From positions 1 through 38,885 of IMG/VR virus record IMGVR_UViG_3300009514_000053: a stretch of DNA of 38,885 nucleotides; one strand, 5' to 3'. Origin of the DNA: a virus. How positions within the stretch are numbered: position 1 is the stretch's first letter; every line of letters starts with the position of its first letter. The position numbers and the translations under genes are program-made. The notes beneath the pieces are model-generated. The model had not been told where the DNA came from. It made no database searches and was given only the letters and a program-made list of their open reading frames with translations. Below are positions 9,712-34,322 of this stretch, in pieces.

Positions 9712-11787
9712 TCACTGTAGGCCTGAAGCAGGAGGTTGTGCTGCATCAAACGTATTTCTATTCAATTGCGACAGTCTACTTATAAGATCATTATCAACTG
9801 TCTCTTCTTCTACAACTTCTTCATCAACTTGAAGCATTTTAGCCAGCTTAAGTATCTGTTCGATCTGCTTAAGGTCAATCTCTTGAAGCTCTTTCATTGT
9901 CTTAGCTTTATTAAGTAGTGCTTGTTCACGATCTTTCTCAGCTTCAGCTTTTCTTTCAACTGCAAGTTGTTCATTCTCGTTAACTCGAGACAATCTTTCA
10001 ACAGCCATACCTTGATCAGCTTGAGCGCGTGCCTTAGCCATTTCAATAGTAGCTGCTTGCTCTTGCATTTGCATTTGAGCTTGAGCTTGTTGTTGTTCTT
10101 GAGCAGCTTGTGCTTGTTGCTGTAACGTCTCAATAAGCTTGTTCTTATTCTGTAATGTACATGCTTCGATCATAGTCTCATCTGGTATCGGTATACCAAG
10201 CTGCTTAAGCTGTAAGAGTTGAGCGAACTGCTGTTGTCTTTGTGTTGAGGTATTAAACCCTTCTTCAATGGCAACATCGTACTTACCGAAGTTCTGGTTG
10301 TAGAACTCTTCTGTTGGCTCTTCTTCTATGATCCTTTGAACCTTACCTGGTGTGAAGTTGTTCTGTATAACCTTCATGGTTAACTGACCGAGTAACTTCT
10401 GAGCTGAGTCTGCATTGTTGAACAATCTTTGAAGAGTGATAAGACCTGCGCCTTGTCTCATCATTGATAATACACCAGGGATATCATCTTCAGCAGCACC
10501 AAGCATTTCTTCGTTAACACCAGATATTTGTTGGATAAGACTAGACATATCTTCTGTCATCTTAGCCATACCTGGAGATATATCGCTTGGCTGTATTCTT
10601 GTTAGATCTTCGGGAGCGGAACCTTTCTTCTTCCAAATAACTACACCCTGACCAGTCTTGTACAACGATTCAGGATCAATTACAGAACCTTCCGTTGCTG
10701 TCCAGCCAGATGTCGGAATAGACTCGAGTGCATCAAGTGAAATAACTTGTCGTCTGTTGAATAAGTACTGTGGATCTCTTAACGCTCTAACAATCCCCTG
10801 CATACGCCATTGGTAATCTGAAAGATCAGGAGAGTAATACCCCATAAATGGAGCAAATGGATATTGGTCTAGTCCAAGCAAGTTACCACCAGAATAGAAG
10901 AGTCTTCCATTAAGAACGATAGCTTGTTTGACTGTAGGGACAATTGTATCAACCAGCGTAAGAGATTGATCTTGGGATAGCATGTAACGAAGCATATCTT
11001 CTTTGCCATTCCATTCTTTCTGATCACCAGTTTCTTTATCAACAATAAGTTTTTGTTCCCGCGTGTCCATGTAATAGTATTCGTCATAGGACAGTAACTT
11101 AGTCACATCGAAGTTAAAGTTCTCCGGCATATATTGGAACTTACCTTCACGAGTTTCAGAGCCACGCATCTCCATAATCTCTTTACGATAGTCAGGCAAG
11201 AGAGCAGCAGCTTGTTGATTAGTTACAAACGACCTCTTCCAGATAGAGTTACAGTCAGATAGATCCATCTTCTTAAAGTAAGGGTCCATCATGATTGAAT
11301 TATGAGCTACTCGATCAAACTTTATATCCCCCGATACTGGATCATTAGAATAATCTACGTAGATCTCAACAAGGTTTAACCCTGTGATAAGAGTACCGTA
11401 CGTGAATGCATCTGATATCGTATCAAGCATCCCCGAGTTACGTTCAACCCATGAGAAGATCTTACTCATTTGGTCAGCTGTTCTTTGATCACCATTCTCT
11501 ACCGGTATGGCAGTCGTACTCTTACGATGTTGTCTTTGATAACCACCCGGCATCTCAACAACACGCTTGATTAAGTTAAACACAAACTGTCTTTGACCCT
11601 GGTAGGTATCACGACCAAAGTACTGGTTCCAGACAGCCTGATCACCAGCATAGTATTGTAAATCTAAGTTAGCTTCAGCTTGGAAGGCTTGATTAGCCGA
11701 GTTATAGTTACGGTAATCCTCTTCCATACGTTCTTTAATAACGTAGTCGTCTTGATATATAGATGATTTCTGTTCAAATAAGGCCAT
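9712..11787 (-). CDS. Portal protein, P22-like
   Basis: A protein of 691 residues, close to the 725 of P22 gp1. It forms the dodecameric ring at the capsid vertex through which DNA enters and leaves. The N-terminal part has 'NLDLQYYAGDQAVWNQ', 'FNLIKRVVEMPGGYQRQHRK' and 'AFTYGTLITGLNLVEIYVDY'. The middle carries 'YPFAPFMGYYSPD' and 'GIVRALRDPQYLFNRRQ', and the 'SGVNEEMLGA' segment fits the clip/stem region. The C-terminus is a long Gln/Ala-rich coiled coil (residues about 545-660), like the barrel of P22-type portals. The gene lies downstream of terminase. Confidence 0.85.
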   Translation of the reverse strand: MALFEQKSSIYQDDYVIKERMEEDYRNYNSANQAFQAEANLDLQYYAGDQAVWNQYFGRDTYQGQRQFVFNLIKRVVEMPGGYQRQHRKSTTAIPVENGDQRTADQMSKIFSWVERNSGMLDTISDAFTYGTLITGLNLVEIYVDYSNDPVSGDIKFDRVAHNSIMMDPYFKKMDLSDCNSIWKRSFVTNQQAAALLPDYRKEIMEMRGSETREGKFQYMPENFNFDVTKLLSYDEYYYMDTREQKLIVDKETGDQKEWNGKEDMLRYMLSQDQSLTLVDTIVPTVKQAIVLNGRLFYSGGNLLGLDQYPFAPFMGYYSPDLSDYQWRMQGIVRALRDPQYLFNRRQVISLDALESIPTSGWTATEGSVIDPESLYKTGQGVVIWKKKGSAPEDLTRIQPSDISPGMAKMTEDMSSLIQQISGVNEEMLGAAEDDIPGVLSMMRQGAGLITLQRLFNNADSAQKLLGQLTMKVIQNNFTPGKVQRIIEEEPTEEFYNQNFGKYDVAIEEGFNTSTQRQQQFAQLLQLKQLGIPIPDETMIEACTLQNKNKLIETLQQQAQAAQEQQQAQAQMQMQEQAATIEMAKARAQADQGMAVERLSRVNENEQLAVERKAEAEKDREQALLNKAKTMKELQEIDLKQIEQILKLAKMLQVDEEVVEEETVDNDLISRLSQLNRNTFDAAQPPASGLQ

Positions 11788-11856: not shown

Positions 11857-12252
11857 TTAGTCTCTCTCGATAAGTTGGTAACTCACTTCACCAGGCTCTA
11901 AGTAAAACTTCATAAGTATATCAAATTGCTTCCAGTCGCATGTATCACCACAGGTAAACAGATCAACAAAGCAAGCCCCATGCTCCGGATATGTATGTAT
12001 CGAAGCATGAGACTCTGACAATAGGAATAACGCTGTAACCCCTTCATTACCAAATATTGCTACATTCTTATCCAAAATAGTTGCACCCGTAGACAGCACT
12101 GAACCCTCGAAGGCTATTAGTAAATACGGTATGGATGTGAGTCGACTACGCTCACATTTTCTATAGCTGGCAATGTAGTGTTTGCCCTTAAACTCATAAT
12201 CTGAGTGTAAAGTTGTAAAAAATATGAGTGCAAGTACGAAGATCTTGTTCAC
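11857..12252 (-). CDS. speD: S-adenosylmethionine decarboxylase (SpeD) homologue with N-terminal signal peptide
   Basis: The enzyme removes CO2 from S-adenosylmethionine to give the aminopropyl donor for spermidine. The core motif 'LLSESHASIHTYPEHG' followed by 'VDLFTCGDT' is diagnostic. Using the GTG at 12252 (AGGAG five bases upstream), the self-cleavage pair is Glu80-Ser81, and His86 and Cys101 match the catalytic His and Cys of the Thermotoga enzyme (Ser63, His68, Cys83) with a constant offset of 18. Those extra 18 residues (MNKIFVLALIFFTTLHS) look like an export signal, which is unusual for this cytosolic enzyme. An alternative GTG at 12258 lacks ribosome-site spacing. The gene sits between terminase and portal. 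Confidence 0.8.
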   Translation of the reverse strand: MNKIFVLALIFFTTLHSDYEFKGKHYIASYRKCERSRLTSIPYLLIAFEGSVLSTGATILDKNVAIFGNEGVTALFLLSESHASIHTYPEHGACFVDLFTCGDTCDWKQFDILMKFYLEPGEVSYQLIERD

Positions 12253-12254
12253 AA

Positions 12255-12578
12255 TCACTCCTGGAATACGTGGTTATCGTATTGTTCTTTTAAGTTGTTT
12301 GCTGCTTCAATAAACCCACGGATCCATTCTGGTGTGGGGTTAACTAATCTTCTATGAAATGAAATATATCTTAAAGTTGGTAAATGACCTACTTGGAATT
12401 GCATTCTAAGTTCTTCGAATGGCTTTACACCGAGTGCATATTCTTCTATATCACGGCACCTGACTTCTTTGTACTTGTAGATAAGTCTCTTCATCTTAGC
12501 TACACGTTCATTAACTGGGTTCACATAAGGCTTTGTGGGCTTTGCCATCATAAACTCAAATTTTAATTGTACATCCAT
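12255..12578 (-). CDS. Hypothetical protein upstream of speD
   Basis: A protein of 107 residues, basic, predicted helical, with 'NERVAKMKRLIYKYKEVRCRD' and 'PTPEWIRGFIEAANNLKEQY' as its clearest segments. The ATG at 12578 has GGGGAGG five bases upstream, but this ribosome site can pair with an upstream CATCCTCCC (see 12581-12636). Its stop precedes the speD start by two bases, so the two are probably coupled. Family not recognised. Confidence 0.6.
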   Translation of the reverse strand: MDVQLKFEFMMAKPTKPYVNPVNERVAKMKRLIYKYKEVRCRDIEEYALGVKPFEELRMQFQVGHLPTLRYISFHRRLVNPTPEWIRGFIEAANNLKEQYDNHVFQE

Positions 12579-12652: not shown

Positions 12653-14059
12653 TTACCAGTTTCCTTGTCTATTATGCCCAGCTATACCAGGCTTAAAATT
12701 CTGTAGCTGCTTAGGTAGCTCTTGAGTATTACCATAAAGCGCTTGAGTTTGTAATGCTTTCACATCTGCTGCTGACATACCCATATTACTAACCATCTCA
12801 TAACCCATGCAAAGTGTTCGTAAAGCGTCTGCTGCATCTGAGTTCTCATCATGCAATGGAGTATCGCGATATACCTTGCGCTGGTGATCATATTCTTTGC
12901 GGTAGTCACGTAATGCTTTGATGAGTGGCTTGCATGTCTTCTCGTTGATATTTATGCGTGAGAGCATAGTTCTGACCTTCTCTATGCCAGTTGATATACG
13001 TCCGACTGGTACTATGGTTGGATCAAGGCCCATCTCACGAGCTATATCGTCTAGCTTTTGTGCGTTGTGCTTCTGTCGTTGAGCGCCATCATGAGGCCAG
13101 AGGTGAGTACCATAAAGATAAGGCTTTTCTTTAATGATACTTATGTAGTGGTCCATACCTACGTTACGAGATGCATAGTAATCGATGATGTTAATAGATC
13201 CGTTAGGACGAGATTGCCAGAAGATGATACACGTCTGATCGTTAACCCCGATATCGAAAGCTGTATGAACTGGCTTACCACGTTCCCATGGAAAGCTATC
13301 TATCTGTTCGTTAAGTTCCATCTCGTTAAGGTATCGTGCGTAGTATGATCCATCAGCACCAATGGTAAACGAGCAGTAATATTCTGATTGTGCCATGTCC
13401 CATGAGATCTTACCGTCTTCTATCTGTTGGTCTATCTGTTCTGGTGTTGAGGTCTTAGTTTCGTTAATGGTTAATGTCTCTACAAACCAGTTGTCTGATT
13501 CCTTAGCTGATTCATACAGATCATGGAACCAGTTGTAACCGTTTGGGGTACTTATTAAGAGTGTGAATGCATCGTTTCTCTCAAGGGCTGGAATAAAAGT
13601 TGGTAGGCATTGGGCGTGTGAAAAAGCTGCTTCTGACATCACGAGCCCCATAGGTGATATACCACGATAGCTGTCGTAATAGTTAGACCCACAAAAGTAG
13701 ATGATTGAGCCGTTTACCAGATGGATCTCCATTGCCTGCTCAAGCTTACGTGCTATCAGTTCTTTAGGGATGTAATCGAGTAGTGGCTTACCTTCAAAGG
13801 TCATGCCTTGATAGATAACTTGGCGAGCTTGTTTCTGTTGAGGAAGCATATAGAGATAAGCACCTCTACGCTTTAACGCTTGTCTTACCATGATATTCAG
13901 ACAGGTGATGTCCTTGCCTGCTCTCCTGTTCCAACAGAGGATAGCGTTGCGTTTACCGTCTCTCTCAATAGCGTCTATTACAGGCCACTGATAAGACTCT
14001 GGTACAAACTGTTGTAATGCTTCGTTAGTCTTTGGTGGAAGGATTAGCTTTTGCGTCAT
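12653..14059 (-). CDS. Terminase large subunit (packaging ATPase/nuclease)
   Basis: A protein of 468 residues that drives DNA into the capsid and cuts it. Residues 44-50 (NRRAGKD) are the Walker A variant, 138-143 (GLVMSE) Walker B with the catalytic Glu, and 170-174 (STPNG) the coupling motif. The RNase H-like nuclease has Asp269 (FDIGVNDQT), Asp324 (PHDGAQ) and Asp408/Asp411 in 'HDENSDAADALR'. All key acids are present, so it should be active. It overlaps the previous gene by 35 bases. The replacement of Ser/Thr by Asp after Lys in Walker A is seen in other phage terminases. Confidence 0.9.
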   Translation of the reverse strand: MTQKLILPPKTNEALQQFVPESYQWPVIDAIERDGKRNAILCWNRRAGKDITCLNIMVRQALKRRGAYLYMLPQQKQARQVIYQGMTFEGKPLLDYIPKELIARKLEQAMEIHLVNGSIIYFCGSNYYDSYRGISPMGLVMSEAAFSHAQCLPTFIPALERNDAFTLLISTPNGYNWFHDLYESAKESDNWFVETLTINETKTSTPEQIDQQIEDGKISWDMAQSEYYCSFTIGADGSYYARYLNEMELNEQIDSFPWERGKPVHTAFDIGVNDQTCIIFWQSRPNGSINIIDYYASRNVGMDHYISIIKEKPYLYGTHLWPHDGAQRQKHNAQKLDDIAREMGLDPTIVPVGRISTGIEKVRTMLSRININEKTCKPLIKALRDYRKEYDHQRKVYRDTPLHDENSDAADALRTLCMGYEMVSNMGMSAADVKALQTQALYGNTQELPKQLQNFKPGIAGHNRQGNW

Positions 14060-14315: not shown

Positions 14316-14915
14316 TTACTTATCTTTCTTACGAGTATCGAGCTTAGGCAGTTCGACTTGCTTGTTCTCAAAGTACTTGAGTAACTCACCAGCCATGCCT
14401 TCAGCTTCTTTAGCTCTCAGCTTTATCATTTCCTTTTGATGCTGTTTATCTTCTTTACGCTGTCCATCTTCACGCTTCCATTCTTCTTCATACATAACAG
14501 AAGGACGATAATCTTCGAGATACTTACGTAGGTGCATCTTAGTCATACCTGCGTCTATTCTTCCTACAAGAGCAAGGTATCTTTGTCTTGTTCCAATACG
14601 CTCTTTAACTAATGGGTATACATGCTGGAGTACTTCAAACTTCTCTACTCGTCTTAAGAAAGAGAACCGAGTAAGTCCTATTGGAGCGAGGAAGTCTTCT
14701 ATGAATAAAGAGGAGTCTTTCTTTGACCATTCCCATAGTGCTTCAGCGAACTCCATTGCGTCTTCTTCAGTCCATTTATCATTGAGTCTATGGCATGCAA
14801 AAGAGGCAGTTAATATATTCGGTGCGGTTTTCCACCAATTTTTAACTGATGTGATATTATGGGGATTTTTTCTTCTTGACTTTGATTCTGATTTTTTTTC
14901 TTTTATCTTTGCCAT
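14316..14915 (-). CDS. Putative terminase small subunit
   Basis: The ATG at 14915 with AAGGATTCAG is preferred over the longer frame from 14942. The product has 199 residues. A basic N-terminal stretch (KIKEKKSESKSRRKNPHN) is followed by helices with 'DKWTEEDAMEFAEALWEWSK' and 'LFIEDFLAPIGLTRFSFLRR', which fits a DNA-recognition domain. The C-terminus is a charged coiled coil ending in a lysine tail. Its position just before the large subunit (one small gene apart) supports packaging-site recognition. Sequence similarity to a named family is not certain. Confidence 0.5.
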   Translation of the reverse strand: MAKIKEKKSESKSRRKNPHNITSVKNWWKTAPNILTASFACHRLNDKWTEEDAMEFAEALWEWSKKDSSLFIEDFLAPIGLTRFSFLRRVEKFEVLQHVYPLVKERIGTRQRYLALVGRIDAGMTKMHLRKYLEDYRPSVMYEEEWKREDGQRKEDKQHQKEMIKLRAKEAEGMAGELLKYFENKQVELPKLDTRKKDK

Positions 14916-15180
14916 CTGAATCCTTTGGGGAAATGGCTGCAAGTTTCTGAGTAAGCTTATCTATATGCTTTTTACGTATAGCAGCTATTTGTTGGTATGT
15001 GAAGAGTTGTGTTTCAAGAGCTTCGTATTCTTCTCTGGTAACTGTGTAGGGGATAAGAGCGGAGTCACTTGAGACTGATAGTCCTGATATTTTCTTCTTT
15101 GAGGAGTCGGGGGCCATTGAAAAAGCGACAAGGCTTAATGTCAGGCCTATACACAAAACTCCATTGCTCATCTTCATCAT
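14857..15180 (-). CDS. Possible small secreted protein, overlapping its neighbours
   Basis: An open frame of 107 codons. Residues 5-20 (SNGVLCIGLTLSLVAFS) look like a signal peptide. The rest is a charged coiled coil (EALETQLFTYQQIAAIRKKH) ending in a basic tail. It overlaps the upstream gene by 116 bases and the small-terminase gene by 59 in other frames, and its ribosome site is poor. The clear signal peptide and heptad pattern favour a real gene, perhaps a spanin-like or periplasmic protein, but I am unsure. Confidence 0.4.
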   Translation of the reverse strand: MMKMSNGVLCIGLTLSLVAFSMAPDSSKKKISGLSVSSDSALIPYTVTREEYEALETQLFTYQQIAAIRKKHIDKLTQKLAAISPKDSDGKDKRKKIRIKVKKKKSP

Positions 15181-23768: not shown

Positions 23769-24137
23769 ATGTTAGGATATCTTATTGTTTTCCTGTGTAT
23801 TGCTGTATGTGCGATGGTCTGTATATTCCTCGCTCTTGGCGAAAGAAGTACATTTAAGAAAATAGCTCGTGCTCCGTATATCAGTGACTATAAAAGTGCA
23901 TTCAAGGCCATTGAAGAAATGAGACGAATGGATAATATCACATCCCCACGATTGAGAAACACCCAGTGCAATATCATGATGCGTACATTGATATGGGTTG
24001 AAGACAACGAAAAACGTCACAAAAGAAATCAAAACAATATCGATACCTTAAACCAACGACTACAACGGTTTGAGGAAACAGAAAAGCTGGTTAAGAAGAT
24101 GTCAGTCATCGTATTAAACCAACAAGAAAAACAATGA
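23769..24137 (+). CDS. Hypothetical protein with N-terminal membrane anchor
   Basis: A protein of 122 residues. Residues 2-23 (LGYLIVFLCIAVCAMVCIFL) are a membrane helix. The rest is a charged coiled coil (RQNNIDTLNQ-like repeats near residues 85-115). Its topology mirrors the tail-anchored protein before it. Ribosome site AGGATAGAAC. Confidence 0.6.
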   Translation: MLGYLIVFLCIAVCAMVCIFLALGERSTFKKIARAPYISDYKSAFKAIEEMRRMDNITSPRLRNTQCNIMMRTLIWVEDNEKRHKRNQNNIDTLNQRLQRFEETEKLVKKMSVIVLNQQEKQ

Positions 24138-34061: not shown

Positions 34062-34322
34062 ATGAAACGTTTATTGTTTATAATAGTGATGGTTATGACA
34101 TGTGGGCACGTTTTATGTATGTCTCCTTTTCTGTTCGATAATGCAGACTCATCTACATCTACCAGTGACCTTGAAGAGGTTCTTGGTATCCCTAAAGAAA
34201 AAAGACAAGAGCGTAGGCGGTATAAGAAGCCCTCACATAAAAAGAAAAGACGACATCATAAAGATACCGTCTTCATAAAAAAAAGTGGGGGGACACTTAT
34301 TATCTATTTAGTCTTACGTTGA
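34062..34322 (+). CDS. Small secreted basic protein in a plus-strand island
   Basis: A protein of 86 residues after a strong AAGGAGGCATTC site. Residues 1-19 are a signal peptide (KRLLFIIVMVMTCGHVLC). A short acidic stretch follows, then a very basic run (KRQERRRYKKPSHKKKRRHH). Its end overlaps the converging ejection-protein gene by 19 bases. A periplasmic or surface role (for instance superinfection exclusion) is possible but unproven. Confidence 0.6.
   Translation: MKRLLFIIVMVMTCGHVLCMSPFLFDNADSSTSTSDLEEVLGIPKEKRQERRRYKKPSHKKKRRHHKDTVFIKKSGGTLIIYLVLR

Follow-up and report, generated by a model that had tools for sequence, protein, structure and literature searches.

A gene for an AdoMet decarboxylase (SpeD) with an apparent export leader was identified in the window, i.e., the whole stretch of 38,885 bases of an IMG/VR record analyzed here. 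It is considered moderately probable that this is an auxiliary metabolic gene of a phage infecting intracellular bacteria and that its exported product would feed a spermidine pathway located outside the cytoplasm. Polyamine synthesis is, by textbook knowledge, cytosolic. If true, the polyamine pathway has been moved to a compartment offering host AdoMet, in two phyla of intracellular bacteria and in their likely phages, which would thereby reinforce an exported pathway of the host; this would be an unexpected answer to spermidine synthesis in AdoMet-auxotrophic parasites.

The window belongs to a tailed phage with a terminase large subunit (TerL), a P22-like portal protein and a major head protein, all encoded on the minus strand. 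The SpeD coding sequence is located at 11857 to 12252 (minus strand) and comprises 131 amino acids, with a GTG start codon at 12252-12250 and the stop codon at 11859-11857. A Shine-Dalgarno sequence AGGAG was read from the sequence at 12258 to 12262 (minus strand), 5 nt upstream of the GTG at 12252; an alternative in-frame GTG is possible at 12258. As stated in the original prediction, speD is placed between the genes for TerL (12653 to 14059, minus strand; PHROG 2, E 6e-30) and the P22-like portal protein (9712 to 11787, minus strand; PF16510, E 3e-75), the latter being the basis of the host link. TerL and speD are separated by a small ORF of 107 amino acids (12255 to 12578, minus strand) directly upstream of speD, for which the family search gave no match and whose stop codon sits within the ribosome-binding region of speD. 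Genes for SpeE and SpeDC were not found in the window phage. Further small proteins with signal-like or membrane N-termini are encoded at 34062-34322, 14857-15180 and 23769-24137 of the window; two of them were scanned and had no Pfam match.

By sequence and structure model, the gene was confirmed as a class 1b AdoMet decarboxylase. The Pfam model AdoMet_dc (PF02675) covers residues 25-130 with 83.3 bits (cut-off 25), and the protein passes the AdoMet decarboxylase equivalog TIGR03330 of NCBIfam (82.6 bits, cut-off 75.65). A PDB sequence search returned class 1b AdoMet decarboxylases only, with T. maritima 1vr7 as the best match. A structure model, suggested as a check in the original prediction, was obtained with AlphaFold2 (pLDDT 93.1) and comprises a leader helix at residues 3-13 and the SpeD core from residue 23; its top Foldseek match was 1vr7 (TMt 0.87, rmsd 1.1). 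From these searches and models, the predicted mature domain spans residues 18-131 (11860 to 12201, minus strand). The presence of all catalytic residues was likewise confirmed in the alignments, where S81, H86 and C101 correspond to S63, H68 and C83 of T. maritima with a constant offset of 18 and are invariant. The respective codons are located at 12010-12012 (Ser81, the predicted pyruvoyl-forming serine and self-cleavage site), 11995-11997 (His86) and 11950-11952 (Cys101), all on the minus strand. These Ser, His and Cys residues are essential for SpeD processing and catalysis (PMC9992855; PMC10407285). The window protein thus resembles class 1b SpeD/SpeH (T. maritima TM0655, 1vr7/1tlu) in fold, in catalytic residues and in Pfam and NCBIfam models. 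It differs in its export leader, whereas members of this class are described as cytosolic, and, compared to the T. maritima enzyme, in a Tyr at position 70 and the lack of a Pro at position 51.

Homologues of SpeD in phages can decarboxylate AdoMet, arginine (then termed SpeDA) or ornithine (SpeDC) (PMC9992855; PMC10407285). A SpeDC identity of the window gene was ruled out, as the diagnostic Gln, Thr, Phe and Tyr are missing and the window has LLSESHASIHTYPEHGACFVDLFTC. A conserved gamma-Pro distinguishes AdoMet from arginine decarboxylases (PMC10407285), its position being left unspecified in the cited text. P89 (T. maritima P71) is kept in the window protein, and Pro51 of T. maritima is replaced by Asn69, an exchange shared with four other phage members. 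Due to this replacement, the window SpeD may have arginine decarboxylase activity. With the SpeDC residues lacking and the prolines giving no clear verdict on SpeDA, AdoMet is the likeliest substrate. A neofunctionalized SpeDA-like enzyme, which would be exported and turn arginine into agmatine in order to resist acid or to alter host arginine, acting outside the cytoplasm, is weighed as an unlikely reading: it fits the Asn found in the five phage proteins and the arginine and ornithine decarboxylases known among phage homologues, whereas the equivalents of P71, Y/W70 and E72 are invariant across the clade of the window SpeD and the TIGR03330 equivalog cut-off is passed.

The export leader comprises residues 1-17 (MNKIFVLALIFFTTLHS; 12202 to 12252, minus strand), as delimited by hydropathy and by the leaders of the nearest relatives, and would be cut after S17, so that the N-terminus reads MNKIFVLALIFFTTLHS-DYEFKGKHY.... 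In a Kyte-Doolittle h-region scan it scores 3.44 (type I), which has a probability of 0.00055 for random N-termini with the same phage composition. By this heuristic the leader follows the Sec pattern of an N-terminal positive charge, a hydrophobic h-region and a small-residue cleavage site, the L-H-S before the presumed cut being a moderate cleavage site only. All leader calls were made with a purpose-made hydropathy rule, which is also positive for 27% of the neighbouring bacterial ORFs; within the SpeD and SpeE sets the leader scores are nearly bimodal.

No ATG, GTG or TTG is found from the GTG at 12252 to the enzyme core, the next start codon being codon 52. For this reason the leader is not an annotation artefact, barring a rare start codon, and a misannotated speD start was ruled out. 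An overlap artefact as the origin of the leader was ruled out as well, as leader and upstream ORF do not overlap. The 18 extra residues originally described as a possible signal peptide therefore stand as a signal-peptide-like leader of about 17 hydrophobic residues, with a Shine-Dalgarno sequence upstream and no internal start. Homologues starting after residue 18 had been named as counter-evidence to this idea; a leader was found in 9/9 other phage lineages and in most of the nearest bacterial homologues. This recurrence in relatives supports the suggestion that the product acts outside the cytoplasm, and we infer that the window SpeD is exported and its leader cleaved.

The leaders of the SpeD relatives are unrelated in sequence and have kept their hydrophobicity; that of L095 has a lipobox. 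A clear cleavage site is missing in a few members (G315 and, by the rule, the phage in L096). These cases, together with hydropathy as the sole basis of the export case, would suit a leader that is retained as an anchor, or that is an extension devoid of function, on an enzyme that is cytoplasmic like other phage SpeDs. This is considered improbable given the short hydrophobic stretches, the frequent cleavage-like sites or lipoboxes, the divergence of leaders that yet remain hydrophobic and the leader habit shared by SpeE and SpeDC. The permanent anchor offered as an option in the original prediction is thus less likely, as the stretches are short, an A-x-A-like site comes after most of them and some members have a lipobox instead.

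The assumption that phage copies of SpeD are uncommon proved wrong, with 147 INPHARED records and at least 599 IMG/VR stretches. A single-sequence IMG/VR scan with the window SpeD gave zero matches and an alignment-based search was required. About 90 other viral SpeDs from IMG/VR were read, of which 88 could be scored for a leader; outside the window clade, none of these (0/88) has one. Leader-bearing SpeDs were found in ten phage lineages, the window included (the others are L013, L014, identical to L098 and L099, L093, L094, L095, L096, L097, L100 and L367, equal to L368), and all closest viral relatives have leaders. The window gene belongs to the enzyme family of the phage SpeD, SpeDA and SpeDC described previously (Li et al., 2023, PMC9992855; PMC10407285) and is, like these, an auxiliary gene of polyamine metabolism in a phage lacking SpeE. 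The window clade differs in being limited to phages and relatives that have leaders, and in the absence of the SpeDC residues. Signal peptide, periplasm and export are unmentioned in the searched text of both articles, and no relevant publication on exported SpeD or SpeE or on polyamines in Parachlamydia or Dependentiae was found in the open-access literature searched. Phage SpeD as such is already known and common; an exported phage SpeD is apparently undescribed in the open-access literature searched, where we found none.

The position of speD between TerL and portal in the window, and of SpeD close to packaging or head genes in Pseudomonas phage ZRG1, Thermus phiYS40 and Moorella MTATph1, could point to a virion or packaging component, with SpeD or its spermidine helping DNA packaging. 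This is highly improbable: in related phages the slot between TerL and portal carries several other, varied leader-bearing accessory genes, and SpeD is relocated before TerL (L013, L095, L097) or lies apart from both TerL and portal (L100). The earlier proposal that spermidine synthesis supports DNA packaging accordingly found no support. The apparent hydrophobic N-terminus of the phiYS40 SpeD was not counted as a leader because the annotated start of its relative T72 falls downstream of the hydrophobic stretch.

In three related phages (L093:4775-5224, L094:6388-6810 and L096:6358-6786) a leader-bearing SpeDC-type decarboxylase is encoded directly behind the leader-bearing SpeD. These second genes show QLIETSxIxxHF...YIDIFSC, i.e., the Q/T/F/Y signature of SpeDC. 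The predicted products of the two enzymes are decarboxylated AdoMet and putrescine, precisely the two substrates of SpeE; neither the window nor the related phage loci read showed a gene for SpeE itself.

Other genes of the related phages have leaders, too. A leader-bearing, SpeD-like protein at L367:6110-6520, two genes past an intact leader-bearing SpeD, is apparently degenerate and lacks ESHxSIHT; in concept it is comparable to an inactive paralogue (prozyme). A further leader-bearing family (L093:5316-5849, L094:7872-8447, L096:6858-7394, L097:10477-10992) sits between SpeD or TerL and the portal, with Met-Glu or similar past the leader, and gave no Pfam match for the one member scanned. 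The AAA ATPase (PF00004) encoded at L093:7126-8265 apparently has a signal peptide and, if exported, would require extracytoplasmic ATP.

Among the bacteria, the best GTDB matches are from environmental Chlamydiota and Dependentiae and have leaders such as MVHLIALFLCAFSSLLCAEES; where a record bears the title Chlamydia trachomatis, this is a MAG label that does not denote the species. The next matches (Melainabacteria-type, planctomycete and other members) are mostly leaderless, the Melainabacteria-type ones having no leader. The genomes examined include at least 46 of Chlamydiota and 16 of Dependentiae with a leader-bearing SpeD. These proteins (e.g., L115, L125, L129) share 45-52% identity, the leader habit and the ESHASIHTYPE core with the window SpeD. 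In contrast to the phage gene, the bacterial speD is a chromosomal core gene with conserved bacterial neighbours, often in a genome with a leader-bearing SpeE. In the phylogenetic tree, all of these phage and bacterial SpeDs form one family (SH-aLRT 99), and about six changes of leader state are required on it. Of the nine phage sequences included, seven fall together with two Dependentiae sequences (values of 85 and 90, not starred).

The window-type SpeD family was detected in 66 of 234 Chlamydiota genomes and a strong SpeE in 41 of 234. Of the SpeE-bearing genomes, 36/41 also have this SpeD (Fisher p = 6e-19). This strong co-occurrence argues against the conversion of arginine to agmatine, as do the separate SpeDC paralogues in the same genomes. 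Conversely, SpeE was not detected in 30 of the 66 SpeD-bearing Chlamydiota genomes, about half, which would suit an arginine decarboxylase, and due to which SpeD may serve a different role in some Chlamydiota.

The N-termini of SpeE are also signal-like leaders, e.g., MKISIALFLCTLLSSVCSYSQ and MRYWMGVLLSISVASVASAE, and leader-bearing SpeE passes the equivalog cut-offs of TIGR00417 and NF002010. Most Chlamydiota and Dependentiae having both genes carry the SpeE leader. For 45 genomes of these phyla with both genes, a leader cut-off of 1.5 gave 33 genomes with both leaders, 10 with neither and 2 with a SpeD leader only; at a cut-off of 2.0 the numbers were 29, 10 and 6 discordant (same state in 39/45). 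The striking agreement of 43/45 at cut-off 1.5 reflects just 2-4 independent transitions and is therefore not significant after kinship correction. Leaderless SpeD-SpeE pairs occur in Anoxychlamydiales, the Simkania-like G035, G185-G189 (a speD-speE operon) and Dependentiae G316. The SpeDC-type paralogue, a predicted ornithine decarboxylase, is leaderless in the Chlamydiota examined and leader-bearing in Dependentiae G014, G017, G286, G328, G338 and G339, so that in the latter the full route from ornithine to spermidine would be exported.

The lack of SpeE in the window phage and in many SpeD-bearing chlamydiae could also be explained by an exported enzyme that removes host AdoMet, e.g., blunting methylation or restriction, rather than serving spermidine synthesis. 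AdoMet hydrolases are an established phage strategy. AdoMet destruction is nevertheless rather unlikely, as the leader-bearing SpeE of 34 genomes and the adjacent SpeDC of three phages suggest synthesis, and extracytoplasmic depletion would not directly affect the methylases of the bacterium itself.

In a complete Simkaniaceae genome (G001, L201, 1838604-1839145) SpeE is in two pieces and the leader-bearing SpeD is intact; the split gene may be a pseudogene or a sequencing error. In Dependentiae, fusions were observed for L304, L308 and L314 (G310, G312, G304): SpeD is joined to SpeE in G304 and to SpeDC in G312, and the SpeE ORF of G310 is doubled.

Among the 101 Dependentiae and 234 Chlamydiota genomes, AdoMet synthetase (MetK, PF02772) was detected in 4 and 61, respectively, with MAG incompleteness possibly exaggerating the absences. 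It was not found in 31 of the 34 genomes with leaders on both SpeD and SpeE, for which reason AdoMet is probably supplied by the eukaryotic host. MetK is present in 6/12 genomes with leaderless SpeD compared to 7/62 with leader-bearing SpeD (p = 0.005, kinship ignored); the leaderless MetK-positive genomes are G185-G189, one lineage with the speD-speE operon, and G316. This pattern fits an extracytoplasmic location of the pathway, which would be due to the entry of AdoMet from the eukaryotic host.

In the favored interpretation of an exported auxiliary enzyme, the leader would direct the unfolded proenzyme across by the Sec machinery of the intracellular bacterium (Dependentiae or Chlamydiota). 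Beyond the inner membrane the proenzyme would fold and self-cleave at Ser81, forming the pyruvoyl cofactor, and could then decarboxylate AdoMet derived from the eukaryotic host. The exported SpeE of the bacterium would attach the aminopropyl group to putrescine, yielding spermidine; the putrescine may be derived from ornithine via the exported SpeDC-type enzyme, which three related phages encode as well. The place of action would be the periplasm, the vacuole or the host cytosol, and a benefit to the phage is presumed. More specifically, and as a tentative proposal, the phage enzyme may act on the eukaryotic AdoMet pool within a complete extracytoplasmic pathway (ornithine decarboxylase, SpeD, SpeE) of Dependentiae or Chlamydiota, which would be run outside the cytoplasm because these bacteria lack AdoMet synthetase. 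If true, the phage alters metabolism two hosts away.

Intracellular bacteria, either Dependentiae or Chlamydiota, are the best reading of the phage host. Portal profile matches above 400 bits were obtained in 9/234 Chlamydiota, 0/101 Dependentiae and 0/294 Planctomycetota genomes. The Chlamydiota portal contigs that were read have the length of a phage genome (35-41 kb) and may have been co-binned, and SpeD is absent from them. Dependentiae are favored by the SpeDC identity (57-59% versus at most 42%), the tetranucleotide usage (r 0.62, 0.60) and the placement in the SpeD tree; the TerL search of Dependentiae gave a weak match only (85 bits).

Different gene arrangements were observed in other SpeD-encoding phages. 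The cultured Microcystis phage MaAM05 (L007) has two SpeD genes and SpeE in succession, which constitutes a putrescine-to-spermidine module. The SpeD domain is part of a 357-aa ORF in Bacillus phage vB_BcoS-136 (L005:1264-2337) and of a 555-aa ORF in a gut phage contig (L008:1606-3273).
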